A model generated the notes under the pieces. The model did not search any database, was not told the DNA's origin, and was given only the letters and a program-made list of their open reading frames with translations. Below are positions 3,519 through 9,712 of a DNA stretch of 64,000 bases, one piece after another. Numbering within the stretch: position 1 is the first letter of the stretch; each line of letters begins with the position of its first letter. Origin of the DNA: Haloarcula halobia (GTDB lineage Archaea; Halobacteriota; Halobacteria; Halobacteriales; Haloarculaceae). Location: the NCBI RefSeq assembly GCF_029338255.1, contig NZ_CP119787.1, forward strand, positions 124,001-188,000. Direction: 5' to 3'. A program made the position numbers and the translations under genes.

Positions 3519-3527
3519 CTTATAATC
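3519..3527 (+). promoter_or_regulatory. TATA box of the kaiC-LOV kinase operon
   Basis: CTTATAATC is centred 26 bases before the ATG at 3549. This is the spacing at which an archaeal transcript would start at or next to the start codon, so the operon is probably leaderless. Confidence 0.6.
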
Positions 3528-3548
3528 ACAGACGCCCTTGGCGCCCCT

Positions 3549-5027
3549 ATGTCCACCGAGGGGCTTTCCAAGATTCCATCCGGGACGCCGGGGCTCGACA
3601 GCGTGCTGCGGGGCGGGGTGCCGGAAGCGCATACGACAATCGTCTACGGCGGTCCGGGGACGGGAAAGACGATCCTCGCGCTGCAGTACCTCGCCGCCGG
3701 CGGGGACGGCCTGTACGTCGGCTTCGAAGAGCGAGAGCGGGAACTCCGACGGAACGCCGCGGCGCTCGGCATCGACCTCTCGGACGTCCGCATCCTCGAC
3801 CTCAGTCCGAAGGGCGAGCAGTTCTTCACCGACGAGTCCTACACCGTGTTCCCGACCGAGGAGGTCGACGGCGAGGACCTGCTCGACCGGATCGCGTCGG
3901 AACTCGAGACGAGCGACGTCGACCGCCTCGTCGTCGACCCGCTCTCGGAGCTCCGGGCGCTCCTTCCCGACGACTTCCAGTTCCGACGCAAGATAACGTC
4001 GCTGTTCAACGCCCTCACCAACCGCGGCGTCACCACGGTCTGTACCGCCCAGCCACCGGCCGACCCCGACGGCGACGACGACCTCCAGTTCCTCGGGAAC
4101 ACCGTCGTCGAACTCCGGCGGACGACCGAGCAGCGGACGCTGGAGGTGACGAAGTACCGGGGTTCGGGGTTCGCGTCCGGCGTCCACACCTATCGCATCC
4201 ACGCGGGCACCGGCGCCCGCGTCTACCCGAAACTCGTTCCGGGCGACCACGAGCAGACCCACGAGCGCGACCAGCTGTCCTCGGACGTCCCCGAACTGGA
4301 CGCCCTGCTGCACGGGGGCATCGAGCGCGGGTCCGTGACAGTCATCTCCGGGCCGTCCGGCGTCGGGAAGACGACCACCGGGTCACAGTTCGTCCAGGCC
4401 GCCGCGGACAGGGGCGAGCGGGGGCTGGTCTACCTCTTCGAGGAGCTCCGCGCGGACTACCTGTATCGGTCGACTGCGCTGGGCATGGAGCTGGAATCGT
4501 TCGTCGACGCCGGCGAGCTCGAGGTCGAGGAGGTGGAGACTCTCACCCGGACTCCCGACGAGTTCGCCGCGCACGTCCGGGAGGCAGTCGAGGAGCGTGA
4601 CATCGGGTTCGTCATGCTCGACGGCATCGCGGGCTACCGTCAGGGATTGCGCGGCGAGGAGTCGACGGCGGCGCTGACCCGGGAGCTACACGCGCTCTGT
4701 CGATACCTGAAACGGATGGGGGTGACCGTCGTGCTCATCGAGGAGATCCAGTACGTGACCGGCGAGTTCTCGCCGACGGCCCACGAGATCAGCTATCTGG
4801 CGGACAACATCGTGTTCCTGCGCTATCTCGAGACGGAGGGCCGACTGGAGAAAGCCATCGGCGTCCTGAAGAAGCGATACGGCGGGTTCGAGAAATCGCT
4901 GCGGTGGTTCTCCATCGAGTCCGGGGAGGGCCTGCAGGTCGGTGAGGCGCTCGCGGGGTACCAGGGGCTGTTGACCGGCATCGCCGAACCCGTAGACGGG
5001 CAGGACAGCGACCCGCCACGGGAGTAG
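3549..5027 (+). CDS. KaiC-like two-domain RecA-superfamily ATPase
   Basis: A 492-residue protein with two KaiC/RadA-type ATPase domains. Domain 1 has Walker A GGPGTGKT at residues 34-41, the paired glutamates of GFEER at 60-61 and a Walker B ending DRLVVD at 130. Domain 2 has Walker A GPSGVGKT at 268-275, LFEEL and VMLDGI. I do not see the cyanobacterial KaiC phosphorylation-site segment in domain 2. In haloarchaea such proteins accompany signalling genes and are expressed in a light/dark-dependent way in some species. The gene sits 8 bases before a LOV-domain histidine kinase, so the two are one operon. The function is likely signal integration; the partner is inferred from position only. 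Confidence 0.88.
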   Translation: MSTEGLSKIPSGTPGLDSVLRGGVPEAHTTIVYGGPGTGKTILALQYLAAGGDGLYVGFEERERELRRNAAALGIDLSDVRILDLSPKGEQFFTDESYTVFPTEEVDGEDLLDRIASELETSDVDRLVVDPLSELRALLPDDFQFRRKITSLFNALTNRGVTTVCTAQPPADPDGDDDLQFLGNTVVELRRTTEQRTLEVTKYRGSGFASGVHTYRIHAGTGARVYPKLVPGDHEQTHERDQLSSDVPELDALLHGGIERGSVTVISGPSGVGKTTTGSQFVQAAADRGERGLVYLFEELRADYLYRSTALGMELESFVDAGELEVEEVETLTRTPDEFAAHVREAVEERDIGFVMLDGIAGYRQGLRGEESTAALTRELHALCRYLKRMGVTVVLIEEIQYVTGEFSPTAHEISYLADNIVFLRYLETEGRLEKAIGVLKKRYGGFEKSLRWFSIESGEGLQVGEALAGYQGLLTGIAEPVDGQDSDPPRE

Positions 5028-5035
5028 GACCACAC

Positions 5036-7207
5036 ATGGACCGGAACAGTAGCCCATCTGACACGAAAGTCGGCCTCGATATCACTCGGGACCGGAATCG
5101 TGAGTTGCTCGAGAAGCTGTTCGAGGCGTGTGACGTCGTCGAGTTCTCGGGTGCCGTCCCGGACGGGACCGACGTGTGCATCGTCGACGAAGCCGCCATA
5201 GGGCGGTCACCGGGGCGGTTCGAGACGTGGCAGACCGAGCAGTCGCCGGTGTTTGCCCCGGTGGCGCTCCTGTCTGAGACCGACGACCGGACGTTCGGGG
5301 ACCTGCCGACGTCCATCGATTCCGTGCTGCGGATACCGATGCCCAAGGCGGAGCTCAGCGACCGCATCGACAACCTCCTGCAGATGCGGGACTTCTCGCG
5401 GGAGCTCGTCGCGGAACGACAGCTGACAGAGCTCGTGTTCGAGTCGAGCCCGCTGGCGAAGCTCGTCCTCGACCCCGACGGGACGGTGGTCAGGGCCAAC
5501 CGGCGAGCCGGCGCGCTCTTCGAGTCGACACCGGCGGACCTGGTCGGAACGAAGTACCACGCCGGCAACTGGACGGCGGTCCGGATGGACGGGTCCGAGA
5601 TTCCACGCGAAGAGCGGGCGCTCACGCGAGTCCTCGAGACCGGCCAGTCGGTCTACGAGTACGAGCACGTCATCTCGCGCCCCGGCGAAGACGACATTTG
5701 GGTGTCGGTGAACATGGCCCCGATTCTGGACGAGTCGGGCGGGATAGCGTACGTCGTCGCCGTGCTCGAGGACGTGACGGTACGACACACCCAGGCACAG
5801 GAACGCGAGCGGCAGGTGGACCTGTTCCGGAAGGCCCAGGCCATCGCGAAGGTGGGGGCCTGGGAGTACGACGCCCAGCAGGACAGCGTCTACCTGACGG
5901 CGGAGGTGTACGAAATCCTCGGCCTCGAACCCGGGACCACGCTGACGATGGACGCGATGTTCGACCAGTACAACCCGGCCGACCGAGAGACGGTGCGGGC
6001 CGCATTCCGGCGGGCGCTCGACGACGGTGAACCCTACGACGTGAAACTTCGCGTCGCCGTCGACGACGGGGCGGAACGCTGGGTCCGTACCCGCGGGGAG
6101 CCACAGCGCGAGAACGGCGACGTGGTCCGCGTCCGCGGAACCGTCCAGGACATCACCGAACAGAAACGTCGAGAGGAGCGCCTGCACCAGATGACCGACG
6201 CTGTGGACAAGGCGCCGATCGGGATCGTCCTGAGCGACCCCACGCAGGACGACAACCCGCTCGTCTACGTCAACGAGGGGTTCGTGGAGGTGACCGGCTA
6301 CGAGCGCGAGGCGGCGACCGGCCGCAACTGCCGGTTCCTCCAGGGCGAGAAGACCGACCCGGAGACGGTCGCGCGGCTCCGCCGGAAGATAGACGCCGAG
6401 GAACCGGTCACGGTCACGGTTCGGAACTACCGCGCCGACGGAACCGACTTCTGGAACCGGGTCGAGGTGGCGCCGATCAGGGACGAGTCGGGGACCGTGG
6501 TCAACTTCATCGGCTTCCAGCAGGACGTGACCGAGCGGGTGGAGCGACAGCGACAGATAAAACTGCTCGACCGCTATCTCAGACACAACATCCTCAACAA
6601 GATGAACGTGGTCAACGGCCTCGCCGAGTCGATACAACGGGTGGGCGACCCACCGGTGACGGACTACGCGACCACCATCGAGGAGGCGGGCCAGACGCTG
6701 CTCCAGAACATGGAGAAAGAGCGGGAGGTGACGAAGCTGCTCCGGTCGGACCCGGAGCCGTCGCCGACCGGGCTGATGTCGCTCCTGCGACCGGTCGTGG
6801 CCGAGCTCGCAGACCGGTATCCCGACGCGACCATCGGCCTGTCGGGTCCGGAGTCGGTGACGGTCACCGGGATAGCCGCCCTCGAACAGGCGTTCAAAGA
6901 GCTCGTCGACAACGCCATCGAGCACAACGGCAGCGCGTCACCGACGGTCGAGGTGACGGTCGACCCCGGGCCCGACACCGTCAGCGTCCGGGTGGCGGAC
7001 GACGGCCCCGGCATCCCGGAGATGGAGGCCGACGTGCTGCTGGACGCCGGTTCGGAGAGCGAGGTGTACCACGGGAAGGGGCTGGGGCTCTGGCTGGTCT
7101 ACCTGGTCGTGACCCGCTCCGGTGGCAGCCTCGAGTTCGACGCCCCGGACGACGGCGGGGGCGTGGTCGTGGTCGAACTCCAGCGCGCGGACGAACCCGC
7201 CGGCTGA
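5036..7207 (+). CDS. LOV/PAS-domain sensor histidine kinase
   Basis: 723 residues, soluble, with no membrane helices. Residues 1-125 look like a receiver-type fold without a clear phosphoacceptor. They are followed by two PAS domains (about 128-250 and 260-378) and then a LOV-type PAS (about 385-500). The LOV-type PAS has the flavin-adduct motif GRNCRFLQG with Cys432, Asn464 and Asn474 in the RADGTDFWN region, and Gln495/496 in FIGFQQD. The kinase core has the haloarchaeal H-box YLRHNILNKMN (His517) and HATPase motifs ELVDNAIEHNG, DDGPGIP and GKGLGLWLV. No receiver output follows, so the response partner is encoded elsewhere or is the KaiC-like ATPase upstream. Blue-light sensing is inferred from the intact cysteine. 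Confidence 0.92.
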   Translation: MDRNSSPSDTKVGLDITRDRNRELLEKLFEACDVVEFSGAVPDGTDVCIVDEAAIGRSPGRFETWQTEQSPVFAPVALLSETDDRTFGDLPTSIDSVLRIPMPKAELSDRIDNLLQMRDFSRELVAERQLTELVFESSPLAKLVLDPDGTVVRANRRAGALFESTPADLVGTKYHAGNWTAVRMDGSEIPREERALTRVLETGQSVYEYEHVISRPGEDDIWVSVNMAPILDESGGIAYVVAVLEDVTVRHTQAQERERQVDLFRKAQAIAKVGAWEYDAQQDSVYLTAEVYEILGLEPGTTLTMDAMFDQYNPADRETVRAAFRRALDDGEPYDVKLRVAVDDGAERWVRTRGEPQRENGDVVRVRGTVQDITEQKRREERLHQMTDAVDKAPIGIVLSDPTQDDNPLVYVNEGFVEVTGYEREAATGRNCRFLQGEKTDPETVARLRRKIDAEEPVTVTVRNYRADGTDFWNRVEVAPIRDESGTVVNFIGFQQDVTERVERQRQIKLLDRYLRHNILNKMNVVNGLAESIQRVGDPPVTDYATTIEEAGQTLLQNMEKEREVTKLLRSDPEPSPTGLMSLLRPVVAELADRYPDATIGLSGPESVTVTGIAALEQAFKELVDNAIEHNGSASPTVEVTVDPGPDTVSVRVADDGPGIPEMEADVLLDAGSESEVYHGKGLGLWLVYLVVTRSGGSLEFDAPDDGGGVVVVELQRADEPAG

Positions 7208-7345: not shown

Positions 7346-7942
7346 ATGGACTGGGTCGAACGGGCCGGGGACCTCCTGTACGACGGGGAGACTATCGAGA
7401 CGGAGGTCCGCGTGGGTTCGGGCGGTCTGGTGGTGACGAGTCACCGCGTGCTCGCGTTCACGCCCGACCGCGACGGGCCGAACTACCGTGCCGTCGACCG
7501 GCCGAACGTCGAAGGCGTCGACGTGACGACGAGCGGCGAACCGGCGTTCCTAGAGCAGGGCCTCAAGGCTCTCGTCGCCGGCGTCGTCCTCGTCGCGGCG
7601 GGGCAGTTCGTCAGCTTCGATAGCATGGTCGCGGACGTCTCGGTCGGCGGCGGCCAGGCGGCCAGCGCCGTCGGTATCGGTCAGATGCTGGGCCTGCTCC
7701 AGACCATGCTGACCCTGCTTGCCCAGCTCGACGACCTCATGCAGCTGTTCGGCGGCCTGGCGCTGGCGCTTTCGGCCGTCGTGCTGGCCGTGTACGCGTG
7801 GAGCCGGGAACGTGTGCTCGTCGTGCGCGTGGCCGGCGACGAGGACCTCACGCTGTCGGCGCCCGGGGACGAGGACACCGTCGACCGGATCGGCGCGGCC
7901 CTCCGGCCCGGGGACGCCCCCGCCGACGACCCGCTCCCGTGA
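7346..7942 (+). CDS. Membrane protein, PH-like N-terminus, function unknown
   Basis: 198 residues. The first about 60 residues (LLYDGETIETEVRVGSGG, then LVVTSHRVLAFTP) resemble a bacterial PH-like fold in which the LVVTSHRVL segment is typical. Two hydrophobic segments follow (about 70-92 and 135-155), separated by a Gly/Leu-rich loop (GIGQMLGLLQTMLTLLAQ), and an acidic tail. I do not recognise a precise family. The next gene, uvrC, starts 33 bases downstream on the same strand. Confidence 0.7.
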   Translation: MDWVERAGDLLYDGETIETEVRVGSGGLVVTSHRVLAFTPDRDGPNYRAVDRPNVEGVDVTTSGEPAFLEQGLKALVAGVVLVAAGQFVSFDSMVADVSVGGGQAASAVGIGQMLGLLQTMLTLLAQLDDLMQLFGGLALALSAVVLAVYAWSRERVLVVRVAGDEDLTLSAPGDEDTVDRIGAALRPGDAPADDPLP

Positions 7943-7975
7943 CGTTCAACTCCGCCGAGCGCCAACCCCGGGGTG

Positions 7976-9712
7976 ATGGACACAGCGGCGGTCCGCGACC
8001 GTGCCGGTGAACTCCCCCGCGAGCCGGGGGTCTACCAGTTCGAGACCGACGCGGACCGGGTGCTCTACGTGGGGAAGGCCGTCGACCTGCGGAGTCGCGT
8101 CCGGTCGTACGCCGACCCGCGCGGGACCCGCATCGCGAAGATGGTCGCGCGAGCCGACCGCATCGACTTCGCGGTCACCGACACGGAGACCCAGGCGCTC
8201 CTGCTCGAGGCCAACCTCATCAAGCGCCACCGGCCGCCCTACAACGTCCGCCTGAAAGACGACAAGTCCTACCCGCTGGTGCAACTCACCGACCACCCCG
8301 TCCCGCGAATCGAGGTGACCCGCGACCCCGAGGAGGGAGCGACGGTGTACGGCCCGTTCACCGACAAGGGCCGGGTGGAGACGGTCATCAAGGCGCTCCG
8401 GGAGACGTACGGCCTGCGGGGGTGTTCGGACCACAAGTACAGCACGCGCGAACGCCCCTGTCTGGACTACGAGATGGGCATCTGTACCGCCCCCTGTACC
8501 GGCGAGATCAGCGGGGACGCGTACGCCCAGGACGTCGAGTCGGTGACCCGCTTCTTCGAGGGCGAGACGGGCGTCCTCTCGGACCCGTTGCGCCGGGAGA
8601 TGGAGGCCGCCGCCGCGGCCCGGGAGTTCGAGCGGGCCGCCAACCTCAGGGACAAGCTCGACGCCGTCGAGGCCTTCCACAGCGGCGGGGACAGCGCCGT
8701 CAGCGACACGACCCACTCGGCGACGACCGACGTGCTGGGCGTTGCCGTCGAAGGCGAGAGCGCGATCGTCGCCCGCCTGCACGCCGAGGGCGGCAAGCTC
8801 GTCGACCGCTCGCGCCACACGCTCGAGGCCCCCGACGGCGAGGGCGCCGCGGGCGTCTACCGGGCGTTCATCCCGCAGTACTACGCCGAACGCGAGCTGC
8901 CGGACGCCATCCTCTGTGCGGAAGCCCCCGCCGACGCCGAACTGGAGGGCTGGCTGGAGGACGAGGGCGTGGCCCTGCGGGTCCCCGGTGCCGGCCGGGA
9001 GGCGACGCTGGTCGACCTCGCCCTCAAGAACGCCCGCCAGCGGGGGGGCACCGACGACGGTGTGGGGCGACTCGCCGACGCGCTCGGTATCGCCCGGCCC
9101 GAGCGCATCGAGGGGTTCGACGTGAGCCACGCCCACGGCAAGAGCGTCGTCGGGTCGAACGTCACGTTCGTCGACGGCCAGCCGGAGACGTCGGGCTACC
9201 GGCGGAAGAAGCTCACCGAGCGCAACGACGACTACGCGAACATGCGTGACCTCGTCCGGTGGCGGGCGACGCGTGCGCTCGAAGGCAGGGACGACAGACC
9301 CGACCCGGACCTGCTGCTCATCGACGGCGGCGACGGCCAGCTGGGCGCGGCCCGCGACGCGCTGGCCGAGACGGGGTGGGACGTCCCGGCCGTCGCGCTC
9401 GCGAAAGACGAGGAGCGCGTCGTCACGCCCGACGGGGTCTACGACTGGCCCGACGACGCCGCTCATCTGCACCTGCTCCAGCGCGTCCGGGACGAGGCCC
9501 ACCGCTTTGCCGTCCAGTACCACCAGACGCTCCGGGACGACGTCTCGACGGCGCTCGACGACGTGCCCGGCGTCGGCCCGAAGACGCGGACTCGCCTGCT
9601 CCGGCGCTTTGGCAGCGTCGACGGGGTCAGGGCCGCGTCGGTGGACGAACTGACCGCGGTCGAGGGCGTCGGCGAGGCCACGGCGGAGACGATTCGTACC
9701 CGGCTGGGCTGA
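7976..9712 (+). CDS. uvrC: UvrABC system protein C
   Basis: Makes the two incisions in nucleotide-excision repair. Domains in order: GIY-YIG nuclease (EPGVYQFE through [12 protein letters not shown], about residues 12-35), the cysteine cluster around [27 protein letters not shown] (140-175), the UVR motif for UvrB contact ([12 protein letters not shown], about 220), the RNase H-like endonuclease domain ([12 protein letters not shown], with [12 protein letters not shown] later) and a C-terminal HhH pair ([13 protein letters not shown] and [12 protein letters not shown]). It is 578 residues from the ATG at 7976; a GTG directly before it is also in frame. The partner uvrB is at 26871-28934; uvrA is not in the window. 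Confidence 0.96.

Follow-up and report, generated by a model that had tools for sequence, protein, structure and literature searches.

What partner does an archaeal KaiC-type ATPase work with, and which part of that partner holds the two together? The question is raised by a locus of Haloarcula halobia in which a gene for a two-domain KaiC-like ATPase lies 8 nucleotides (nt) ahead of a gene for a histidine kinase that carries a LOV domain. The stretch of DNA analyzed, here called the window, comprises 64,000 nt (NZ_CP119787.1, 124,001-188,000); the coordinates of its features given below are window positions on the + strand. A first-pass annotation of the sequence had proposed that the pair forms a light-input module talking to the ATPase. 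As described below, the constant partner of KaiC is not the LOV domain but a pseudo-receiver (pREC) domain located at the N terminus of the kinase.

Conservation of the pair was surveyed across whole genomes of the class, which were used in place of a tight orthologue scan that gave two loci only. A P0001 search was carried out over 391 genomes. The first set consisted of 80 neighbourhoods from the best matches together with the window, L008, and L009; the held-out set consisted of 34 neighbourhoods, mostly more distant (37-63% identity, most below 45%). Gene calls were stop-to-stop frames. A receiver-like gene adjoins KaiC in 82 of the 83 loci of the first set and in 33 of the 34 held-out loci. 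Under a strict position rule, which places the partner within 900 bp of the KaiC copy, 114 of 119 KaiC copies have a pREC gene (downstream in the same orientation in 104 and divergent in 10). Additional to these is L093, where a pREC-LOV-kinase gene is directly upstream of KaiC. One KaiC copy in L060 reaches the end of its slice and was left out, and overall 115 of 118 assessable two-domain copies adjoin a pREC gene. Since the genome encodes 24 receivers, a generous estimate of chance pairing is ∼3% per locus, and the KaiC-pREC pairing is far beyond it. The comparison of haloarchaeal neighbourhoods, which the first-pass annotation had named as a check, therefore bears out a conserved pair. The closest relatives (L008, L009, L039, L040, and L041) all retain KaiC with the kinase. 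In L009 (Halomicroarcula sp. SYNS111, 7473-9675), the orthologous kinase is found in two overlapping frames with the break between pREC and LOV, which is either a frameshift or a sequencing error.

The pairing was also approached from the side of pREC using a profile (A1) built from 68 sequences. The window genome contains one strong match (2.7e-31, the next being 2.7e-4), located at its sole two-domain KaiC, and no such partner was found at the other KaiC-like paralogues of that genome, which are mostly single-domain. For a reverse test, 55 genomes were chosen by the presence (30) or absence (25) of a two-domain KaiC. A pREC was found in 29 of the 30 genomes with a two-domain KaiC versus 2 of the 25 without (Fisher p = 4e-12, a descriptive value as the genomes are related), and 43 of the 49 pREC matches adjoin KaiC. 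The orphans in this test are L161, L162, L164, L167, L169, and the weak match L170. One of the two KaiC-less genomes with pREC (G314) has a truncated KaiC beside it: at L163, a 151-codon remnant (4503-4955, + strand) directly precedes an intact pREC-LOV-kinase, and KaiC is apparently decaying while its partner persists. A KaiC frame in two pieces beside intact pREC kinases was likewise observed at L168 and L166 (contig 2 of G332 and contig 2 of G274, respectively). A wider sample of the phylum revealed another family, outside Halobacteria, with KaiC directly upstream of pREC in L173, L174, and L176; L171, L172, and L175 of the same family do not have the KaiC-pREC order.

The N terminus of the kinase is a pseudo-receiver by the definition of a 2025 review (PMC12632262), with a predicted receiver fold. 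When aligned with CheY, the domain has I-T-D-S-I in place of D-D-D-T-K: Ile16 and Thr17 replace the acid pair, Asp51 is retained, residue 80 is Ser, and Ile100 replaces the Lys. None of the KaiC partners in the first set retains both residues of the acid pair. Pfam gave no match on the window pREC, and Response_reg matched only 3 of the 68 members of the pREC family. The family profile does match receivers in the PDB (PleD, E = 1.5e-12), and the AlphaFold2 model of pREC is a confident receiver fold (predicted local distance difference test score of 94, predicted template modeling score of 0.88). The closest structural neighbours of the model are receiver domains (Foldseek; VIA-align Z of 14.5), and the pseudo-receivers of KaiA and CikA are not among the 50 structural matches listed. 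The initial observation that no receiver follows the kinase stands, as no receiver gene is present 3′ of it, but the N-terminal pseudo-receiver had been overlooked. The authors of the review stated that they knew of no work on what pseudo-receivers do in archaea.

Beside KaiC, pREC partners are found as histidine kinases, Bat-type regulators, PAS-only proteins, and a stand-alone form. Bat-type partners, which combine pREC with GAF, BAT, and HTH_10, are downstream of a two-domain KaiC in L061, L063, L090, and L112; pREC-PAS partners without a kinase are found in L058 and L066, and a stand-alone receiver-like partner in L083. The LOV domain varies as well. An intact LOV Cys is present beside KaiC in 48 of 118 loci (46 by alignment, plus L009 and L093), and the distribution of LOV on the KaiC tree requires at least nine changes, six of which are forced by well-supported branches. 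Within the KaiC clade of the window, 13 of 14 members have the LOV Cys. LOV was rejected as the constant element of the pair, as pREC is kept where LOV is not; the constant partner of KaiC is pREC. What remains of the initial proposal, a module for light input that acts together with a KaiC-like ATPase, is well supported by comparison of sequences.

LOV-like domains with Pro in place of the Cys (GxNPR) were observed beside KaiC in L049-L051, L053, L057, L059, L062, L065, L073, and L110, and are possibly a light-insensitive or redox version. In L060, L067, L071, L080, L096, and L186, a canonical REC-HalX regulator is directly upstream of KaiC and is a plausible phosphate acceptor in these relatives; it is missing beside the window pair.

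By gene content and layout, the KaiC and LOV kinase genes form one operon. In orthologue pairs, the kinase start is shortly 3′ of the KaiC stop or overlaps it. The single leaderless promoter that had been proposed holds up: in addition to the TATA-like element of the window (Table 1), A+T content in 97 related loci reaches a maximum of 0.80-0.81 at -27/-26 relative to the KaiC start, which is what leaderless transcripts predict. No terminator-like site was found inside the operon and no Rfam match around it. Downstream of the kinase are an open reading frame (ORF) resembling a small membrane protein with no clear family (7346-7942, + strand) and one resembling uvrC (7973-9712, + strand).

Table 1. 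Features of the KaiC-LOV kinase operon in window coordinates.
Feature	Position	Strand	Basis or remark
TATA-like TTATAAT, leaderless promoter	3520..3526	+	centre 26 nt 5′ of KaiC ATG; sequence
Two-domain KaiC-like ATPase, CirC class, 492 aa	3549..5027	+	ORF (ATG start), Pfam PF06745 x2, PDB match
Walker A, first KaiC domain, GGPGTGKT, residues 34-41	3648..3671	+	intact
Walker A, second KaiC domain, GPSGVGKT, residues 268-275	4350..4373	+	intact
Ser415-Tyr416, equivalent to KaiC phosphosites S431-T432	4791..4796	+	PDB alignment
pREC-PAS-PAS-LOV histidine kinase, 723 aa	5036..7207	+	ORF (ATG start), Pfam, own alignments
pREC, kinase residues 8-124	5057..5407	+	CheY alignment, AlphaFold2, Foldseek, VIA-align
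First PAS (PAS_4)	5438..5788	+	Pfam
Second PAS (PAS_3)	5888..6145	+	Pfam
LOV domain	6197..6535	+	Pfam; YtvA_fam 1.2e-49 over LOV; PDB alignment
Codon of photo-adduct Cys432 in GRNCRFLQG (motif from residue 429)	6329..6331	+	
Codon of His517 (LRHNILN), predicted phospho-accepting His, divergent DHp	6584..6586	+	
HATPase_c (PF02518) with N, G1, and G2 boxes	6878..7183	+	Pfam, motifs

The ATPase has two matches to PF06745 (E = 6.5e-67), and its best PDB match is KaiC 8zn5 (E = 1.4e-57). Both domains contain Walker A, Walker B, and the catalytic Glu, in agreement with the intact Walker A motifs first reported. Among two-domain relatives, the Walker A Lys is retained in 118 of 119 first domains and in all 119 second domains, and Glu299 in 119/119. 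The first-pass annotation had not seen the cyanobacterial phosphosite segment. Its absence was rejected: the segment can be aligned with solved KaiC structures, and the S431-equivalent residue (Ser415 in the window) is Ser in 119/119 relatives. The T426-equivalent residue (T410 in the window) is Thr or Ser in all 119, and the T432-equivalent residue (position 416) is Tyr in 106/119. The S431-T432 pair of cyanobacterial-type KaiC is therefore incomplete, with the Ser present and the Thr replaced by Tyr, and the cyanobacterial-type circadian KaiC model TIGR02655 gave a score of 141 bits, below its cut-off of 546. KaiB (PF07689) had no match in the window genome; the same search recovered it from a Synechococcus control genome.

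In the kinase, Pfam identified three PAS domains, the third of which is the LOV domain, and HATPase_c. Among PDB entries, the LOV domain matches a YtvA-LOV fusion best (E = 2.3e-38), and the motifs that contact flavin mononucleotide (FMN) align. The photoreceptor motif GxNCRFLQ is present in the sequence with FMN-contact residues and the adduct Cys, which is intact as initially described. The boxes LRHNILN, FKELVDNAIEH, DDGPGI, and GKGLGL identify the protein as a histidine kinase. PF00512 (HisKA) had no Pfam match in the window kinase, and the H-box motif LRHNILN is conserved in most partner kinases.

Our preferred explanation, to which we assign a probability of roughly 0.64 as a whole, is that a KaiC of the CirC class serves as a signaling hub docked via pREC to an exchangeable sensor and output, here a blue-light LOV domain and a histidine kinase, with the soluble kinase being KaiC’s dedicated partner. 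Blue light would generate a Cys432-flavin adduct in LOV and thereby a change in the adjacent His517 kinase. The N-terminal pREC would dock the kinase onto KaiC, so that the light state of the kinase would influence the ATP or phosphorylation state of KaiC and vice versa. Phosphate transfer to a receiver encoded at another locus would carry the signal onward; in relatives with a pREC-Bat fusion, the output would be direct control of transcription. We infer the KaiC-pREC contact, flavin binding, the direction of signaling, and its target; the assignment of pREC as the connector is made because it stays beside KaiC while the output varies. Several points weigh against this explanation. Adjacency may reflect shared expression instead of docking, and the sampled genomes were selected by similarity and have common ancestors, so the counts are not independent. 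LOV is absent or its Cys is replaced (mostly by Pro) in the majority of partners. KaiC copies without an adjacent pREC are found in L098, L156, and one copy of L084, and stand-alone pREC kinases are found in L161, L162, L164, L167, L169, L184, L188, and L189.

The first of these points could be taken further, in that the protein could be an ordinary light-responsive two-component kinase, co-transcribed with KaiC for expression only and making no contact with it, whose pREC controls the kinase from within the same protein, as in ShkA or CikA. There are known cases of a pseudo-receiver inhibiting the kinase to which it belongs (PMC12632262), and the orphan pREC kinases would fit such a role. However, pREC is found beside KaiC even in partners that have no kinase (the Bat-type, PAS-only, and stand-alone ones). 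It may lie downstream of KaiC, upstream of it, or divergently, and the association extends beyond Halobacteria. Internal regulation would not require an association that holds even for kinase-free partners, which weakens it as an explanation; we regard it as unlikely, although a serious contender.

Doubt could also be directed at the sensor, as a domain that has Pro in place of the Cys (GRNPRF) or is missing altogether in many relatives could be a redox/flavin or plain PAS sensor instead of a photoreceptor; a Cys-less LOV can still signal by flavin reduction (PMC4682037). For the window this is improbable, given that the Cys and its motif are intact there and in 13/14 clade members and that photocycling of a LOV domain from haloarchaea has been described at 3 M salt (PMC12202551). 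Finally, the locus could encode a light-entrained KaiC timer, either a clock or an hourglass, with the pREC kinase standing in for KaiA, KaiB, and CikA. In favour of a timer, Walker A, the catalytic Glu pair, and the invariant Ser at S431 are all preserved in the second KaiC domain; cirC-type loci carry a LOV kinase; and in Haloferax volcanii, the other cir genes are no longer expressed rhythmically in light/dark when cirC is knocked out (PMC3941300). The lack of KaiB in the genome and the Tyr that predominates at T432 argue against a timer, no free-running rhythm was reported for this KaiC in the literature searched, and we consider it very improbable. The bolder form of our preferred explanation, that the pREC family unrecognized by Pfam is an archaeal KaiC-docking module for exchangeable sensors and outputs, which in LOV lineages forms a KaiA- and KaiB-free light-entrained timer, is quite unlikely as stated.

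The locus supplies a defined partner for the archaeal KaiC ATPases. The broad view of these proteins as hubs that connect with sensors and receivers, reportedly put forward by Makarova et al. (mBio, 2017; as given in PMC5847659), is shared with our preferred explanation. The literature searched, which did not cover that paper, contains no statement of a KaiC-pREC pairing, and priority is not established. The cyanobacterial KaiABC/CikA system resembles the locus in having KaiC, a kinase with a pseudo-receiver, and light or redox input. It differs in that the window genome is without KaiB, with no KaiA seen, the pseudo-receiver is N-terminal, and T432 is replaced by Tyr. Haloarchaeal LOV histidine kinases described previously (PMC4844311, PMC12202551) share the REC/PAS/LOV/kinase architecture and the LOV motif, whereas an association with KaiC is absent from both papers (no “Kai” in their text). 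Bat proteins have a divergent N-terminal receiver, the role of which was described as obscure by Galperin et al. (PMC5847659), together with PAS/GAF sensors; at the C terminus, the protein of the window has a kinase and not HTH_10. The same authors reported KaiC-REC fusions in Methanosarcinaceae. Our results suggest that the unexplained receiver of Bat proteins is the KaiC-associated pREC domain, and the locus thus offers a possible role for it.

The closest parallel in layout is cirC-fixL of H. volcanii, in which a two-domain KaiC likewise lies beside a PAS kinase. There, cirC encodes the only two-domain Cir protein, is adjacent to fixL, and has orc2 directly upstream, and each cir knockout tested, cirC included, left the remaining cir genes arrhythmic under light/dark conditions (PMC3941300). 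The exact cirC forward primer was not found in 15 genomes of that genus, H. volcanii not among them. The published cirC primers fit L074, L075, and L102 with 1 and 0 mismatches, and in each a pREC-LOV(GRNCRFLQ)-kinase of 858 codons is downstream of KaiC. Sequence identity between the window KaiC and the KaiC proteins of this group is about one half. By inspection of the sequence, L074 and L075 also have an Orc1/Cdc6-like gene directly upstream of KaiC, as published for cirC. Based on this synteny and the primer matches in relatives, the “fixL” beside cirC very likely encodes a LOV kinase and not the oxygen sensor it was published as. The locus thereby suggests which protein may be the photoreceptor for the light-dependent cir genes of Haloferax, a genetically tractable genus.

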